From Dehalococcoidia bacterium (GTDB lineage Bacteria > Chloroflexota > Dehalococcoidia > SpSt-223), in the NCBI GenBank assembly GCA_025054935.1, contig JANWZD010000002.1, forward strand, positions 16,149-80,148: a stretch of DNA of 64,000 nt. Reading direction: 5' to 3'. The notes under the pieces were generated by a model. It did not search any database and had not been told where the DNA came from. It saw only the letters and a program-made list of their open reading frames with translations. Positions within the stretch are counted from its first letter, which is position 1. The number at the start of each line of letters is the position of its first letter. The translations under genes were made by a program, and so were the position numbers. Shown here piece by piece: positions 20,318 through 28,122 of the stretch.

Positions 20318-23300
20318 CTAGCGCCCGTCTCGGATCGCGAAGTAGATGGCGTCGGGATGATGGATGACCAGCGCGGCGGTCGACTGTTCCGGGTCGAGTT
20401 GATGGGCGGGAGTGAGGGAGACGCCGATCTCGCTGCCGGGGAGGATCCGGAACAAGATCTCCTGCTCAGCCAGGTCTGGGCAGGCGGGGTAGCCCCAGCT
20501 GTAGCGGCGGCCAGTTTCCGGACCGAGGCCGAGCTCCGCCTTGATCCGGCGGTGCGTCCACTCGGCGAGGCCTTCGGCAACTTGGACGCTCAGCCCATGG
20601 ATATAGAGCATGTCGCTGTAGTTGCCCGCCTGCTGGAGGTGATTGATGTAGTCAGACGCCCGCCGGCCGGCGGTGACAATCTGAAGAGGCAGGACGTCGT
20701 AGCGGCCGCTCTCGCGCTCGGCGAGATAGTCGGCGAGGCAGAGATGGCGCTCGTCCGGCTGGCGGGGAAAGGTGAAGCGGCCGAGTTCGCGAGACCAGTC
20801 TGCGGGGTCGTAGACGATCACCTGCTGGCCGTCGGCTTGACAGGGGTAGTAGCCGTAGATGACCGCCGGCGCGAGCCAGCCCTCCGTTTCGGCGCGCTGT
20901 TGGAGGGTCGCCAGCAGCGGCTGGAACTCCTCGGCGATCAGCCGGTCCCACGCTGCGCCCTTGGCTTTCGCGCCGCCCCAGTGCAGCCGAAAGAGGGTGT
21001 TCAGGTCGAGGAGCGGCCACACCTCTGCCAGCGGCACGCTGCGCACGACGCGGTAGCCCCAGAATGGCGGTGTCGGCGGCTGGTCGAGCGGGCGCACCGA
21101 CGAGCGAGGCAGATCAGGACGGAGAACGGCAGGTCCCGCGAGCCCAACTGTGCCGGCACGTCCATCGGCGAGCGCAGCCTCGCGATGGATCTGTTCGAGG
21201 AGCGCCGGCCGCCTCTCCGGGTCCATCAGCTGATCCATCACTTCGAGGCCTTCGAAGGCATCCTTGCAGTAGAAGACGCCCGCTTCGTACTTCGTCCCGT
21301 CCTCGAGCGTCAGGATCCGGCGTCCGAACGCGCGGTTGATCGACGCGCCGCCGATCAACACCGGAATTTTCAGCCCGCGGCGGTGGAGTTCGTTGACGGT
21401 GAGCGGCATCTGCTTCGAGGTGGAGACGAGGAGCGCGGAGAGCCCGATAGCGTCGGCCCCGACCTCGACGGCGCGGTCGATGATCGTGTTGACCGGCACC
21501 TGCTTGCCGAGGTTGTAGACGGTGTAGCCGTTGTTGGTCAGGATCGTATCGACGAGGTTCTTGCCGATATCGTGGACATCCCCGTAGACAGTCGCCAGAA
21601 CGACCTTGCCCTTGCTCACGCCCTCTTTCTTTTCAAGGTACTGTTCGAGATGAGCGACCGCCCGCTTCATCACTTCAGCCGACTGTAGGACAAACGGCAG
21701 GATCAGTTCGCCCGCGCCGAATTTATCGCCGACGTCTTTCATTGCGGGGAGGAGAATGTCGTTCAGCACGGCGACGGGCGAGCGCCGGGTGAGGGCCTCG
21801 TCGATCAGCGCCTCAATGCCTTCCTTCTTGCGGTGCAGGATCTGCCAGTGGATCCGCTCCTCGGCGCTCATCCCGGCGGTGGGATCGCTCGTCGAGGCGG
21901 CAGCAGCGGGGACGGCGTGCTCGAAATGAGCGATAAACCGGGCGAGGGCGTCGGGCCGGCGGTCGAAGATGAGATCATCCGCTAGGTCGCGCTCCTCGGG
22001 CGGGATCTCAGCGTAGGGCGTCACCTCGGCGGGGTGAACCATCGCGAGATCGAGCCCATGCTGCACCGCGTGGTAGAGAAAGACGCTGTTCAGCACTGCC
22101 CGCGCTGCAGCCTTCAAGCCGAAGGAGACATTGGAAATGCCGAGACTGGTGTACGCCCCGGGCAGGGAGGTCTTGATAGCGCGGATCCCCTCGAGGGTCG
22201 CGATCGCGGAGCGGCGGAATTCCTCTTCGCCGGTGGCGAGCGTGAAGGTGAGCGGGTCGAAGATCAGCCACTCCGGCGGGATCTCATACTCCTCGGTCGC
22301 GATCTGATAGATGCGCCGGGCGATGGCGAGCTTGCGCTCTGCCGTCTTCGCCATTCCCTCTTCATCGATGGTGAGCGCAACGACAGCCGCGCCATACTCC
22401 CGAACGAGGGGCAGAACGGCATCGAGCCGGGCGCGCCCATTTTCGAGGTTGATCGAGTTGACGATCGCGCGCCCGGGGTAGTGCTTGAGCGCCGCTTCGA
22501 CGACATTCGCTTCGGTCGTGTCGATCATGAGCGGCGCATCGACCCCCATCTGCAGCTTGCGGACGGCAGCAACCATCTGCTGCTCCTCGTCGGAGCGCTC
22601 AGTGACGGCGACGCAGAGATCGAGCGCATGGGCGCCGCCTTCGACCTGCTCGCGGGCGATCGTCAGGAGGCCGTCGTAATCCTCGGCGAGAACGAGGCGC
22701 TTGACGCGGCGCGACCCCTGGGTGTTGACGCGCTCGCCGATGAGAAGGGGGCGCGGCTCCTGGTCGAGGGGGACGGACTTGATCGCCGAGGCGATGGCCG
22801 GCACGGGGCGCGCTCGGCGCGGCTTCGGCCGGATCCCCGCCGCCAGCTCGGCGAGCAGCCGAATATGCTCTGGCGTCGTGCCGCAGCAGCCGCCGATCGC
22901 GTTAACGCCGAACTCGCGGGCGAATTCGATCAGGGTCTCTGCGAGCGGGGCCGGCTCCATCGGGTAGCAGGCGCGGCCGTTGACGTTAATCGGCAGCCCC
23001 GCATTCGGGATCACCGAGATCGGCCGGCTCGAGAACTCGGCGAGATAGCGCACTGGCTCGCGCATGTAATCCGGCCCGGTCGAGCAGTTCAGCCCGATCA
23101 CATCGACCGGCAGCGCTTCAAGCGTGGTGAGCGCGGCGCCGATATCGGTGCCGAGCAGCATCCGCCCATTGGTGTCGAGGGTCACCTGCACCTGCAGCGG
23201 AACCCAGCGGCCGGAGTCCCGGAAGTAGCGTCCGATCCCGACCACCGCCGCCTTCGCTTCGAGGAGGTCCTGCACGGTCTCGACGAGCAGCAAGTCGCAG

Positions 23301-23797
23301 CCGCCTTCGATGAGGGCACGGGCCTGCTCGTAAAAGATGTCCGCCAGTTCGTCGAACGTGATGGCCGAGAGGCTCGGGTCGTCGGACGAGGGCAGCATCC
23401 CGGTCGGCCCAAGAGAGCCGGCGACGAAGCGGGGCCGCTCCGGCGTTGCGAATTCATCGGCGACGCGCCGCGCCAGCTGCGCCGCCCGGAAATTCACCTC
23501 GTACACCCGGTCGCCAAGCCCGTATTCGGCCAGCTTCAGCCGGTTGCCGCCGAAGGTGTTCGTTTCGATGACGTCCGCTCCCGCTGCGAGAAAGGAGCGG
23601 TGGATCGTCTCGATCACGTCAGGGCGGGTGATGACGAGGTAGTCATTCGCCCCCTCGAGCCCGCCGAAATCGGCCGCCGATAACTCGAGCGCCTGGATCG
23701 AGGTGCCCATCGCTCCGTCGAAGACAACGACCCGTTCCTTGAGCGCGTCGAGATAGGGACTTGATCGCGTAGCCGGTCGAGAGCGTTGGGCGAGCAT
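20318..23797 (-). CDS. metH: Cobalamin-dependent methionine synthase
   Basis: About 1159 residues with all four modules. The homocysteine domain has FDGAMGTSIQ, a central Cys (GLNCSTGP) and GGCCGT zinc ligands. The pterin domain begins at GERVNTQGSRRVKRL. The B12 domain has the GDVHDIGKNL motif. The C-terminal AdoMet reactivation domain has RRYSWGYPACPD. It transfers a methyl group from methyl-tetrahydrofolate to homocysteine through cobalamin. ATG at 23797 has AAGGTGG just upstream; an in-frame TTG at 23830 is less likely. No riboswitch was recognised in the 5' region. Confidence 0.96.
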   Translation of the reverse strand: MLAQRSRPATRSSPYLDALKERVVVFDGAMGTSIQALELSAADFGGLEGANDYLVITRPDVIETIHRSFLAAGADVIETNTFGGNRLKLAEYGLGDRVYEVNFRAAQLARRVADEFATPERPRFVAGSLGPTGMLPSSDDPSLSAITFDELADIFYEQARALIEGGCDLLLVETVQDLLEAKAAVVGIGRYFRDSGRWVPLQVQVTLDTNGRMLLGTDIGAALTTLEALPVDVIGLNCSTGPDYMREPVRYLAEFSSRPISVIPNAGLPINVNGRACYPMEPAPLAETLIEFAREFGVNAIGGCCGTTPEHIRLLAELAAGIRPKPRRARPVPAIASAIKSVPLDQEPRPLLIGERVNTQGSRRVKRLVLAEDYDGLLTIAREQVEGGAHALDLCVAVTERSDEEQQMVAAVRKLQMGVDAPLMIDTTEANVVEAALKHYPGRAIVNSINLENGRARLDAVLPLVREYGAAVVALTIDEEGMAKTAERKLAIARRIYQIATEEYEIPPEWLIFDPLTFTLATGEEEFRRSAIATLEGIRAIKTSLPGAYTSLGISNVSFGLKAAARAVLNSVFLYHAVQHGLDLAMVHPAEVTPYAEIPPEERDLADDLIFDRRPDALARFIAHFEHAVPAAAASTSDPTAGMSAEERIHWQILHRKKEGIEALIDEALTRRSPVAVLNDILLPAMKDVGDKFGAGELILPFVLQSAEVMKRAVAHLEQYLEKKEGVSKGKVVLATVYGDVHDIGKNLVDTILTNNGYTVYNLGKQVPVNTIIDRAVEVGADAIGLSALLVSTSKQMPLTVNELHRRGLKIPVLIGGASINRAFGRRILTLEDGTKYEAGVFYCKDAFEGLEVMDQLMDPERRPALLEQIHREAALADGRAGTVGLAGPAVLRPDLPRSSVRPLDQPPTPPFWGYRVVRSVPLAEVWPLLDLNTLFRLHWGGAKAKGAAWDRLIAEEFQPLLATLQQRAETEGWLAPAVIYGYYPCQADGQQVIVYDPADWSRELGRFTFPRQPDERHLCLADYLAERESGRYDVLPLQIVTAGRRASDYINHLQQAGNYSDMLYIHGLSVQVAEGLAEWTHRRIKAELGLGPETGRRYSWGYPACPDLAEQEILFRILPGSEIGVSLTPAHQLDPEQSTAALVIHHPDAIYFAIRDGR

Positions 23798-23872
23798 TCC
23801 ACCTTCGCGCACGAAGCGGTCTTTTTGCAATGATACCGGCCTGTTTCGGGGGGATCCACGCGCTCCGCAACA

Positions 23873-23901
23873 CCGCCGGGGGGCGGACGCTCCCCCGGCG
23901 G
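23873..23901. repeat. GC-rich 10-bp inverted repeat between metH and nrtR
   Basis: CCGCCGGGGG (23873-23882) and CCCCCGGCGG (23892-23901) pair perfectly around a 9-nt loop. It lies between the divergent metH and nrtR genes, just before the nrtR promoter. There is no T-run, so it is not a standard terminator; it could insulate the two promoters. Confidence 0.5.
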
Positions 23902-23918: not shown

Positions 23919-23947
23919 TTGACAGGGACATTTGCGCGGCGTAAATT
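23919..23947 (+). promoter_or_regulatory. Promoter of the nrtR-nadBCA operon
   Basis: TTGACA (23919-23924), a 17-bp spacer and TAAATT (23942-23947). The expected transcription start (about 23954) coincides with the nrtR ATG at 23955, so the mRNA is probably leaderless. No Shine-Dalgarno sequence precedes the ATG. Confidence 0.75.
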
Positions 23948-23966
23948 TTGCTCTATGAGAGCAGAA
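23946..23966. promoter_or_regulatory. Operator candidate: inverted repeat centred on the nrtR start codon
   Basis: TGCTCT (23949-23954), ATG (23955-23957) and AGAGCA (23958-23963) form a perfect 6-3-6 dyad. With one mismatch pair it extends two more base pairs on each side. It overlaps the expected transcription start and the first codons of nrtR, an ideal place for autorepression by NrtR. This binding is inferred; known NrtR sites are palindromes of about 21 bp whose sequence varies by lineage. Confidence 0.6.
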
Positions 23967-24689: not shown

Positions 24690-24704
24690 ATCGGTGAGGT
24701 TGGC

Positions 24705-26258
24705 ATGGCAGAACGCGTAATCGTGGTCGGTGGTGGCGCTGCGGGGATGACCGCCGCCTTGGCAGTGGCGAATGCGGGCGGCAAGGTGACCTTGATCACA
24801 AATGCGATTGGTGGGGGGTCGTCTCCCTGGGCGCAAGGCGGCGTTGCCGCAGCCATCGGCGCGGACGACTCGCCCGAACAGCACCTGCGCGATACGCTCG
24901 CGTGCGGGGGCGGGCTGGTTGACGAAGAGGCGGCGCGCCTGATGGCAGAAGAGGCGGCAGCGCGCATCGCCGACCTTATCGCTGCGGGCGTCCCCTTCGA
25001 CCGAGAGCCAGACGGCTCGCTCGCGCTCGGCCTCGAAGGGGGCCACCATCGCCGGCGCATCATCCATGCCGGCGGCGGCGCCACCGGCTGGCATATTGTC
25101 CGCGCCCTCGCCAACGTGGTTCTCGCTACGGCTGAGATCTCGGTGCTTGAAGGACCGACTGTCGCTGCGCTGCAGGTGAAAGCGGGGCGGGTGACCGGCG
25201 TCGAGCTCCGCTGGCCGGATGGGATCGACGGCGTGCTGGAGGGGCCGGTCGTCCTCGCGACGGGCGGCTGCGCCGGTCTCTACGGCCGGAGCACGAACCC
25301 TGAGACGGTCAACGGCCGCGGCATCGCTCTCGCGTGGCAGGCAGGCGCGGCGCTCGCCGACCTCGAGTTTGTCCAGTTCCACCCCACCGCGCTCGACTTG
25401 CCGGTCGCTGCGATGGGCCACAAAGCGCTTTTGCTGACCGAGGCGCTGCGCGGGGAGGGAGCCTATCTTCTCGACGCTCATGGGCGCCGGTTCTTGACTG
25501 CGGGGCCGCTCGCGCATCCGCTCGCCGAGCTCGCTCCCCGCGACGTCGTCGCGCGGGCGATCCATTATGCCCGCCAGGATGGTCCGGTCTTCCTCTCCCT
25601 CCGTCACCTCGACCCGGACCACGTCCGCGCTCGCTTCCCGAACCTCGTCTCTCTGCTCGCGTCGATCGGGCTGGATCTCGCGACCGACCTGCTGCCTGTC
25701 GCGCCGGCAGCGCACTATCTGATGGGAGGGGTGTGGTCGGACCGGAATGGCGCCTCCACCGTGCCGGGGCTGTACGTCGCGGGTGAGGTAGCCTGCACGG
25801 GAGTGCACGGGGCGAACCGGCTGGCGTCGAACTCGCTGCTCGAATGCCTCGTCTTCGGCCGGCGCGCCGGGCTTGCGGCCCTCGAGGGGGTTGCGCCAAG
25901 CGGGTTCGAAGAGGCGCTCAACCGCGGCTATGAATTGGACGCCCACCCGCCGGCGCCGCCGGAGCAGGGGGTCAGCGGCGAGGCGTTGGGAGCGCTGCTC
26001 GACAGCAATCTCGGCGTGATCCGTAACGAAGCGGGTCTCAGCGAAGCGCTCGCCCGGCTTGCGGAAGACGAGGCGGGCGTCGTGGCGCGGCGGATCGCGC
26101 TTGGCGCGTGGCTCCGCCGCGAGTCGCGGGGGGCGCATTACCGGAACGATTTTCCGGAGACGGTCGAGAGGTGGCGCGGCCGCATTATTCAGCAGCGCGG
26201 GCGTGCCCCCCATTTTGCCCCAGTCCGCGCTCCGGTGGCGGCGGCAGAGCGGCCATGA
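24705..26258 (+). CDS. nadB: L-aspartate oxidase
   Basis: 517 residues, FAD-dependent. The dinucleotide motif is VIVVGGGAAGMTAALA, followed by SSPWAQGGVAAAIG, the active-site region EFVQFHPTALDLP, LLTEALRGEGAYLLD, and PAAHYLMGGVWSDRNGASTVPGLYVAGEVACTGVHGANRLASNSLLE. It oxidises aspartate to iminoaspartate, the first step of NAD synthesis. GGTGAGG precedes the ATG; the gene begins 15 bp after nrtR and overlaps nadC by ATGA. Confidence 0.96.
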   Translation: MAERVIVVGGGAAGMTAALAVANAGGKVTLITNAIGGGSSPWAQGGVAAAIGADDSPEQHLRDTLACGGGLVDEEAARLMAEEAAARIADLIAAGVPFDREPDGSLALGLEGGHHRRRIIHAGGGATGWHIVRALANVVLATAEISVLEGPTVAALQVKAGRVTGVELRWPDGIDGVLEGPVVLATGGCAGLYGRSTNPETVNGRGIALAWQAGAALADLEFVQFHPTALDLPVAAMGHKALLLTEALRGEGAYLLDAHGRRFLTAGPLAHPLAELAPRDVVARAIHYARQDGPVFLSLRHLDPDHVRARFPNLVSLLASIGLDLATDLLPVAPAAHYLMGGVWSDRNGASTVPGLYVAGEVACTGVHGANRLASNSLLECLVFGRRAGLAALEGVAPSGFEEALNRGYELDAHPPAPPEQGVSGEALGALLDSNLGVIRNEAGLSEALARLAEDEAGVVARRIALGAWLRRESRGAHYRNDFPETVERWRGRIIQQRGRAPHFAPVRAPVAAAERP

Positions 26259-27151
26259 TCGACACCGTCCTGCGCCCCTGCCGGGTGTCGCCCGACCTCC
26301 CGGGGCTTGCTGACCAAGTCGCGCGCGCGCTCGCCGAAGACGTGGGCCGAGGCGACCTGACGACGCGCCTGACCGTGCCCGCTGAGATGCGCGCCCGCGC
26401 CTCGCTCATCCAGAAATCGCCCGGCGTGCTCGCGGGTGCGCCGGTCTTCGAGGCGGTCTTTGCGCTTGTTCCAGGAGAGGTCTCGATTGCTTGGCTCGTC
26501 GAGGAGGGCAGCGTCTCACCCGGGCCGCGTACCGTCGCCGAACTCGAAGGCAGCGCGCGCGCCTTACTGACGGGGGAGCGGACAGCGCTCAACTATCTCC
26601 AGCGCTTGTCGGGGATCGCCACGCTCGCCGCCCGCGCGGCGGAGATCATCGCGCCCTATAACGTCACTCTGCTCGACACGCGCAAGACGACGCCAGGATT
26701 GCGGCTCCTTGAGAAGTACGCGACGCGGGTCGGCGGGGCGCGCAACCACCGCTTCGGCCTCGATGACGGCATCTTGATCAAGGACAACCATATCGTGGCT
26801 GCGGGCGGGATCACCGCGGCGGTGCAGGCGGCCCGCGCAGGTGCCCCGCCGGGAATGCTTATCGAAGTCGAGGTGACCACCTTCGCGGAGCTGGACGAAG
26901 CGCTCGCCGCCGGCGCCGACATCATTCTGCTCGACAATTGGGATCCCGCCGACCTCCGCCGCGCGATCGAGATCTGCGACAGCGCAGACGTCTGGACCGA
27001 GGTCTCGGGAGGAATCTCGCTGGAGACGATCGCCCGCTACGCCGCCGCACGGCCGGATTTCATCTCGATGGGGGCACTGACCCACTCGGCGACCGCGCTC
27101 GATTTTTCGCTCGACTTCGTCATGGAGAGGCCAGCATGGTCAGCTCGCTGA
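26255..27151 (+). CDS. nadC: Nicotinate-nucleotide pyrophosphorylase (quinolinate phosphoribosyltransferase)
   Basis: 298 residues. The family signature is seen in LAEDVGRGDLTTRL, ERTALNYLQRLSGIATLAA, TLLDTRKTTPGLRLLEKYATRVGGARNHRFGL, ILIKDNHI and EVSGGISLETI. It makes nicotinate mononucleotide from quinolinate and PRPP. The ATG lies in an ATGA overlap with nadB; longer in-frame starts would sit within nadB. Its end overlaps the start of nadA by 16 bp, so the three enzymes are coupled. Confidence 0.95.
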   Translation: MIDTVLRPCRVSPDLPGLADQVARALAEDVGRGDLTTRLTVPAEMRARASLIQKSPGVLAGAPVFEAVFALVPGEVSIAWLVEEGSVSPGPRTVAELEGSARALLTGERTALNYLQRLSGIATLAARAAEIIAPYNVTLLDTRKTTPGLRLLEKYATRVGGARNHRFGLDDGILIKDNHIVAAGGITAAVQAARAGAPPGMLIEVEVTTFAELDEALAAGADIILLDNWDPADLRRAIEICDSADVWTEVSGGISLETIARYAAARPDFISMGALTHSATALDFSLDFVMERPAWSAR

Positions 27152-28122
27152 TTCAGATCGCTCCACCGCCAGTTCAGGAGTCCGAGGAGGAGCTGATCGC
27201 CCAGATCCAGCAGCTCCGCAAAGAGCGCAACGCCGTCATCATGGCGCACAACTATCAAATCCCGCAGATTCAGGACCTCGCCGATTTTGTCGGCGACTCG
27301 CTCGCCCTTGCGCGGGAGGCAACCCGCGTCAAGGCGGATGTCATCGTCCTCTGCGGCGTCTATTTCATGGCAGAGACGGCGAAGCTGCTCAATCCGGACC
27401 GCATTGTCATCATTCCGGATCCCAACGCTGGCTGCTCGCTCGCCGACTCGATAACGGCAGAGCAGCTTCGGGAATGGAAGGCACAGCATCCCGGGGCGGT
27501 TGTTGTAAGTTATGTCAATACAACGGCAGCGGTGAAAGCCGAGACCGATATCTGCTGCACCTCTAGCAACGCCGAGAAGGTGATCCGTTCGATCCCCGAG
27601 GAGACGCCGATCCTGTTCTGTCCCGACCTGTTCCTCGGCGACTATCTGAAGCGGATCACCGGCCGCAAGAACATGGAGATTTGGCCGGGCGAGTGCCATG
27701 TTCATGCCGGTATCCGCCCCGAAGAAGTGCGGGAATTGCTGGAGAGCACTCCGGATGCCGAGCTGCTCATCCATCCCGAGTGTGGCTGCACCAGTTCGCT
27801 GGTGTGGGCCCGCGGACAGGGCATGTTGCCCAACAACACCTATATGCTGTCGACCGACGGCATGATCCGCCACGCGCGCGCCAGCGCTGCCAAGAACTTC
27901 ATTGTCGCCACGGAGACTGGCCTGCTGCACCGCCTGCAGCATGAGAACCCAGCGAAGCGCTTCTTCCCCGCCGATCGCGCTGCCGTCTGTGTCTACATGA
28001 AGATGATCACCTTGCCGAAGCTCCGCAACGCCTTGCGCGACTTGCAGCCGCAGGTGACGATCCCGGAGGAGATCGCTGTCCCGGCGCGGCGCGCGATCGA
28101 GCGGATGCTGGCGGTCAGCTGA
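27136..28122 (+). CDS. nadA: Quinolinate synthase
   Basis: 328 residues. NAVIMAHNYQIPQIQDLADFVGDSLALAREA is the N-terminal signature. The three Cys that bind the [4Fe-4S] cluster are most likely those in VLCGVYFMAE, the WPGECHVH region and HPECGC. It condenses iminoaspartate with dihydroxyacetone phosphate to quinolinate. ATG at 27136 is preceded by GGAGAGG and lies within the last 16 bp of nadC; the longer in-frame start lies deep inside nadC. It is the last gene of the NrtR-controlled operon. Confidence 0.95.
   Translation: MVSSLIQIAPPPVQESEEELIAQIQQLRKERNAVIMAHNYQIPQIQDLADFVGDSLALAREATRVKADVIVLCGVYFMAETAKLLNPDRIVIIPDPNAGCSLADSITAEQLREWKAQHPGAVVVSYVNTTAAVKAETDICCTSSNAEKVIRSIPEETPILFCPDLFLGDYLKRITGRKNMEIWPGECHVHAGIRPEEVRELLESTPDAELLIHPECGCTSSLVWARGQGMLPNNTYMLSTDGMIRHARASAAKNFIVATETGLLHRLQHENPAKRFFPADRAAVCVYMKMITLPKLRNALRDLQPQVTIPEEIAVPARRAIERMLAVS

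Follow-up and report, generated by a model that had tools for sequence, protein, structure and literature searches.

A predicted NrtR operator spanning the start codon of an apparently leaderless nrtR-nadB-nadC-nadA operon in a Dehalococcoidia bacterium

Results

The nrtR-nad locus and its promoter

The window analysed in this study, a stretch of 64,000 nucleotides from a Dehalococcoidia bacterium, carries a regulator gene, nrtR, directly followed by nadB, nadC and nadA, which links the regulator to genes of NAD synthesis (Table 1). These three downstream genes were part of the original prediction and were borne out by profile matches. Among relatives found in genome contigs, nad genes lie downstream of nrtR in 17 of 18. 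The nearest named relatives of the genome are Dehalococcoidia bacterium KatS3mg060 (90% NrtR protein identity) and Chloroflexi isolate HOT.Cluster.3 (81%). Upstream of nrtR and divergent from it is metH (methionine synthase-like, by translation; window 20318-23830, minus strand), which has this position in all three congeners compared. No Rfam riboswitch was found in the region, including the sequence 5' of metH. Between the divergent metH and nrtR genes the window also holds a GC-rich inverted repeat, perfect over 10 bp, CCGCCGGGGG / CCCCCGGCGG (23873-23901), that was not seen at the equivalent place in the sister species.

Table 1. Features of the nrtR-nad operon and its promoter region, in window coordinates
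Feature	Position	Strand	Basis and remarks
-35 box TTGACA	23919..23924	+	read in sequence; TTGACW in three congeners; promoter scan
-10 box TAAATT	23942..23947	+	7 nt 5' of ATG; identical in 3/3 congeners; promoter scan
Proposed NrtR operator TTTTGCTC-TATGA-GAGCAGAA	23946..23966	+	centre 23956; conservation, matrix match, genome uniqueness
Core dyad TGCTCT-ATG-AGAGCA	23949..23963	+	perfect; arms TGCTCT 23949-23954 and AGAGCA 23958-23963
Start codon of nrtR (ATG); predicted transcription start close to it (+1 near 23955)	23955..23957	+	5' end inferred from -10 spacing
nrtR, 244 aa, Nudix-like ligand domain and NrtR winged helix	23955..24689	+	PF00293, PF21906; PDB relatives 3gz5, 5bs6
nadB, L-aspartate oxidase	24705..26258	+	profile matches; order kept in congeners
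nadC, nicotinate-nucleotide diphosphorylase	26255..27151	+	profile matches; overlap with nadB (ATGA)
nadA, quinolinate synthase	27136..28122	+	profile matches; overlap with nadC

The promoter had been predicted as TTGACA-17-TAAATT placed 7 nt 5' of the nrtR ATG, and both the sequence and a promoter scan agree with this. The spacing is TTGACA-17 nt-TAAATT-7 nt-ATG, and a scan of 401 bp on both strands returned this promoter as the single hit (0.1 expected). The -10 box lies 7 nt before the start codon in all three congeners and no Shine-Dalgarno sequence is present (TTGCTCT precedes the ATG in the window). The three species share a single start codon, the one at the position of the nrtR ATG, and in congener L041 an in-frame stop lies 8 codons upstream and GTG is the sole start. 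The predicted leaderless start of nrtR is well supported by the -10 spacing, the missing Shine-Dalgarno sequence and the single shared start codon, with the 5' end itself placed by the spacing. A TTG start at 23919, 12 codons upstream, was rejected because this TTG belongs to the -35 hexamer and because the reading frame does not stay open in L041. Across 464 kb (the window and 400 kb from a single contig) with rough ORF calls, TANNNT was found 12-14 nt before 25 starts, compared with ~12 expected from other distances. Leaderless transcription thus looks like a minor mode in this genome, in line with the leaderless share of ~5% in those Chloroflexi where it has been detected (PMC3160421).

The regulator is of the NrtR type

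The nrtR product has an N-terminal Nudix-like domain (PF00293, 34.4 bits against a cut-off of 21.1) and a C-terminal NrtR winged helix, the latter by a narrow pass (PF21906, 27.8 bits against a cut-off of 27). Profile comparison with the PDB returned 3gz5/3gz6 (1.7e-22) and AraR 5bs6 (2e-26). Entries 3gz5/3gz6 are annotated as MutT/nudix family, and we take them to be the NrtR of S. oneidensis. In an alignment read by eye, the Nudix catalytic box is degenerate, with RALVRK in place of REUxEE and three Glu residues absent. Such a degenerate box belongs to the definition of NrtR given in PMC4666351. The sole NCBIfam match was NF050029 (76.3 bits against a cut-off of 400), which is a narrow equivalog model and gives no family definition. 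A conserved palindromic element is present at the nrtR promoter, as membership in the NrtR family leads one to expect. By its predicted Nudix and NrtR winged-helix domains, the regulator heading nadB-nadC-nadA is NrtR-type.

Conservation of the dyad at the start codon

The perfect inverted repeat TGCTCT-ATG-AGAGCA with the start codon at its centre is present as claimed. Taken alone, the dyad is not significant and lies within chance: when the 120-bp region was shuffled 5000 times, 308 shuffles (~6%) gave symmetry as good, and some perfect 6-bp dyad occurred in 10.7% of shuffled 60-mers. Because it is statistically weak alone, the dyad was tested by comparison, and it was judged real because it is conserved in congeners and matched by a motif matrix derived out of sample.

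The conservation comparison covers three congeners only, the window species and two sister species of its genus. Both sister species keep the -35 box, the -10 box and TTTTGCTC-N5-GAGCAGAAATCGC; the -35/-10 spacer and the upstream DNA have diverged. Positions identical in all three number 6/6 in the -10 box, 6/7 in the next 7 nt and 13/14 from +4 to +17, and outside this block 5/17 in the spacer and 9/58 further upstream. The block runs on through silent codon positions at the start of nrtR and its conservation stops abruptly past codon 6. Elsewhere in nrtR the three congeners share an identical codon at 47 of 177 conserved residues, and the AGA at codon 2 is the sole one among ~204 Arg codons of five window genes (0.5%). 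On this codon comparison, the conservation of the block's coding part is not protein conservation.

The original prediction had named loss of the dyad at related nrtR-nadBCA loci as evidence against it, and the dyad is present in both congeners checked. However, its innermost pair (T 23954 / A 23958) is lost in both sister species, where the N5 is CATGA and TGTGG compared with TATGA in the window. Because this pair is free to vary, the element is taken to be TTTTGCTC-N5-GAGCAGAA. The placement of the dyad at the start codon therefore stands, but the 15-bp perfect repeat gives way to a predicted element of ~21 bp (23946-23966) that holds the start codon within its N5 and whose left half is overlapped by the -10 box TAAATT. 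The alignment of the three congeners showed no second conserved element upstream.

A related motif at nrtR promoters of two other families

An element of the TTTTGCTC-N5-GAGTATAA type is found at the -10 box of nrtR loci in family f66 (L042, L043, L071), and one of the TTTAGYTC-N5-GAACCAAA type at those in family f95 (L045, L051, L054, L056). A symmetric matrix was built from these seven sites, with the window's genus left out and the N5 ignored. The training sites had been selected by visual inspection for symmetry close to the -10 box, when the window site was already known; with this matrix, the window site came first in 464 kb of its own genome, scoring 20.6 compared with 18.1 for a runner-up that sits in apparently coding sequence. 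When each site was left out in turn and 180 bp around each nrtR start were scanned, the motif group scored 16.6-20.8 except for L056, a weak member that failed this test, and ten other nrtR promoters scored 7.8-13.3.

A search of the genome and of relatives for the 15-bp dyad, proposed along with the original prediction, gave a divided answer: the dyad is kept in congeners and a related motif is present at other nrtR-nad loci, but the genome holds no good second copy. The genome contains a single exact copy of the 15-mer TGCTCTNNNAGAGCA, and no further operator copy with two or fewer mismatches was found in all 3.57 Mb, so the regulon is probably the nrtR-nadBCA operon alone. A wider regulon was considered and rejected; the remaining genome sites have three mismatches, as many as the control. 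An exact-match search of 400 genomes of the phylum returned the start-codon-centred pattern TTTTGCTCNRTGNGAGCA from this genome alone.

A second group of nrtR-nad loci (L044, L046-L050, L052, L053, L055, L057), belonging to other Chloroflexota and Thermomicrobiales, has nrtR promoters without TTTnGYTC and often with a ATTCAAATC-type sequence. Within the winged helix, the residue that aligns with position 192 of the window's NrtR is Ser at 10/10 loci of the first group and Asn at 10/10 of the second. This position may be a candidate specificity residue, and the split may also reflect ancestry alone.

Relative to the -10 box and start codon, the motif takes three positions. The centre of the dyad in the window's genus falls on the second base of the start codon, 9 nt downstream of the -10 box. 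At the f95 loci the centre lies 10 nt past the -10 box, so the dyad again falls on the inferred transcription start, and these genes are leadered, with the start codon 24-34 nt after the -10 box. At the f66 loci the motif stands between -35 and -10, its centre 11 nt upstream of the -10 box end, and its right arm contains the -10 box; the start codon follows 6-9 nt after the -10 box, which makes these genes leaderless or nearly so. The genus thus appears to combine an operator on the start point, as in f95, with a leaderless start, as in f66. With both properties present, the start codon falls within the operator, and among the loci seen this happens in this genus only.

Discussion

The data presented in this study suggest, with a probability of about 0.78, that the element is an NrtR autorepressor operator on the leaderless sigma-70-type promoter of nrtR-nadB-nadC-nadA. 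This self-repression was proposed from the start and is supported by the regulator family, the operon, conservation in congeners, the motif in two further families and the sole copy in the genome. In the model, where binding, repression, ligand and 5' end are predictions for the window operon, the four genes form one operon, which would be read from TTGACA-17-TAAATT, and the transcript would start at or beside the A of the nrtR ATG, leaving nrtR leaderless. An NrtR dimer would sit on the 21-bp dyad TTTTGCTC-N5-GAGCAGAA, centred on the T of the start codon. It would cover the start point together with the 3' end of the -10 box and the first ten or so transcribed bases. RNA polymerase would thereby be blocked from opening or leaving the promoter, and both nrtR itself and de novo NAD synthesis would be repressed. 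By analogy, release would come from ADP-ribose (an NAD breakdown product) or NAD at the Nudix-like domain; in NrtRs that have been studied, both repression and its relief by ADP-ribose or NAD are known (PMC6800001; PMC4666351).

Three other explanations were weighed. The block could be kept only for promoter strength and leaderless translation (-10 box, discriminator and A-rich first codons), with incidental symmetry. Leaderless starts depend on the bases around the start codon, and this dependence, like the 6% of shuffles with a dyad this good, fits such an explanation. It is nevertheless improbable, as nrtR promoters in two other families have the same half-sites and N5 at other places relative to the start codon, and conservation ends abruptly after codon 6.

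A slightly less probable explanation is that the element acts as RNA, with a transcript started further upstream folding into a TTTTGCTC/GAGCAGAAA hairpin that holds the AUG in its loop and limits nrtR translation. However, only one promoter was found, and from it transcription would begin past the left arm, so that this arm would not be transcribed, and the f66 motif, with the -10 box in its right arm, precedes the transcript and cannot act as RNA there. The predicted hairpin is stable in the three congeners (-9.3, -8.4 and -9.3 kcal/mol), and U-G pairing is allowed at position +-8, which is unpaired as DNA, and at the inner pair of L041; but the only pair that varies among congeners breaks in L040 without compensation. 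That the dyad is the operator of another or an additional regulator, with NrtR binding elsewhere, is the least likely of all: the motif is known from sequence alone, but it tracks nrtR across families, has no second conserved element beside it in the congeners' aligned upstream region and occurs only at nrtR in this genome.

With the NrtR operator as the preferred reading, one of the closest studied systems is NrtR of Mycobacterium smegmatis (PMC6800001), also an autorepressor linked to nadA, nadB and nadC. Its palindrome GTTTTCGA-N7-TCGAAAAC is likewise odd-centred, spans ~21-23 bp and has TTTT/AAAA in the same register as the window operator. However, the inner bases are TCGA-N7-TCGA rather than GCTC-N5-GAGC, and the M. 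smegmatis site is located between nrtR and the nad operon whereas the window operator lies over the nrtR start codon. As described second-hand in PMC4666351, NrtR of Shewanella and Synechocystis and NdnR of Corynebacterium resemble the window regulator in their degenerate Nudix-like box, winged helix and control of NAD genes, and their motifs are highly lineage-specific, as here.

Leaderless operons headed by their own repressor also have precedents. In the acuR-acuI-dddL operon of Rhodobacter sphaeroides (PMC3017554) the repressor gene comes first, the operator overlaps the promoter and the downstream genes have ribosome sites, as here; AcuR is of the TetR family, unlike NrtR, and its inverted repeat lies over the promoter, with no start-codon overlap reported. 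NreA of the leaderless nreAXY operon of Mesorhizobium (PMC12724321) is an autorepressor with a dyad operator and a very compact promoter, as here, but it belongs to the CsoR/RcnR family and its operator lies between -35 and -10, like that of the f66 nrtR loci and unlike that of the window. In the window, a Shine-Dalgarno-like GGTGAGG stands 5' of the nadB ATG (24690-24705), whereas nrtR lacks one. The acuR operon shows the same pattern, which suggests that translation of the regulator may be lower than that of the enzymes.

Leaderless autorepressor operons (AcuR, PMC3017554; NreA, PMC12724321) and NrtR autorepression are thus already known. The view that an operator over a start codon is unusual holds in that the arrangement was found in this genus alone, but is tempered by these known leaderless autorepressor operons. 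Within the limits of the literature surveyed, two things are new: the motif of this lineage, and the precise way in which operator and start codon overlap. It is somewhat more probable than an even chance that operator recognition dictates the N-terminal residues (R/G-A-E) and rare codons of its own repressor, one stretch of DNA serving as -10 end, both starts, first triplets and operator, with the operator elsewhere along the promoter in related lineages.

This study supplies a putative operator motif for Chloroflexota NrtR, TTTnGYTC-N5-GArY, for which no earlier description was found in the literature surveyed. Across related operons, one operator motif appears in three positions with respect to -10 box and start codon. 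A leaderless promoter would let operator and reading frame overlap, at a cost visible in codon choice. The arrangement would be a compact form of the known self-regulation of synthesis of NAD, the vitamin B3 cofactor.
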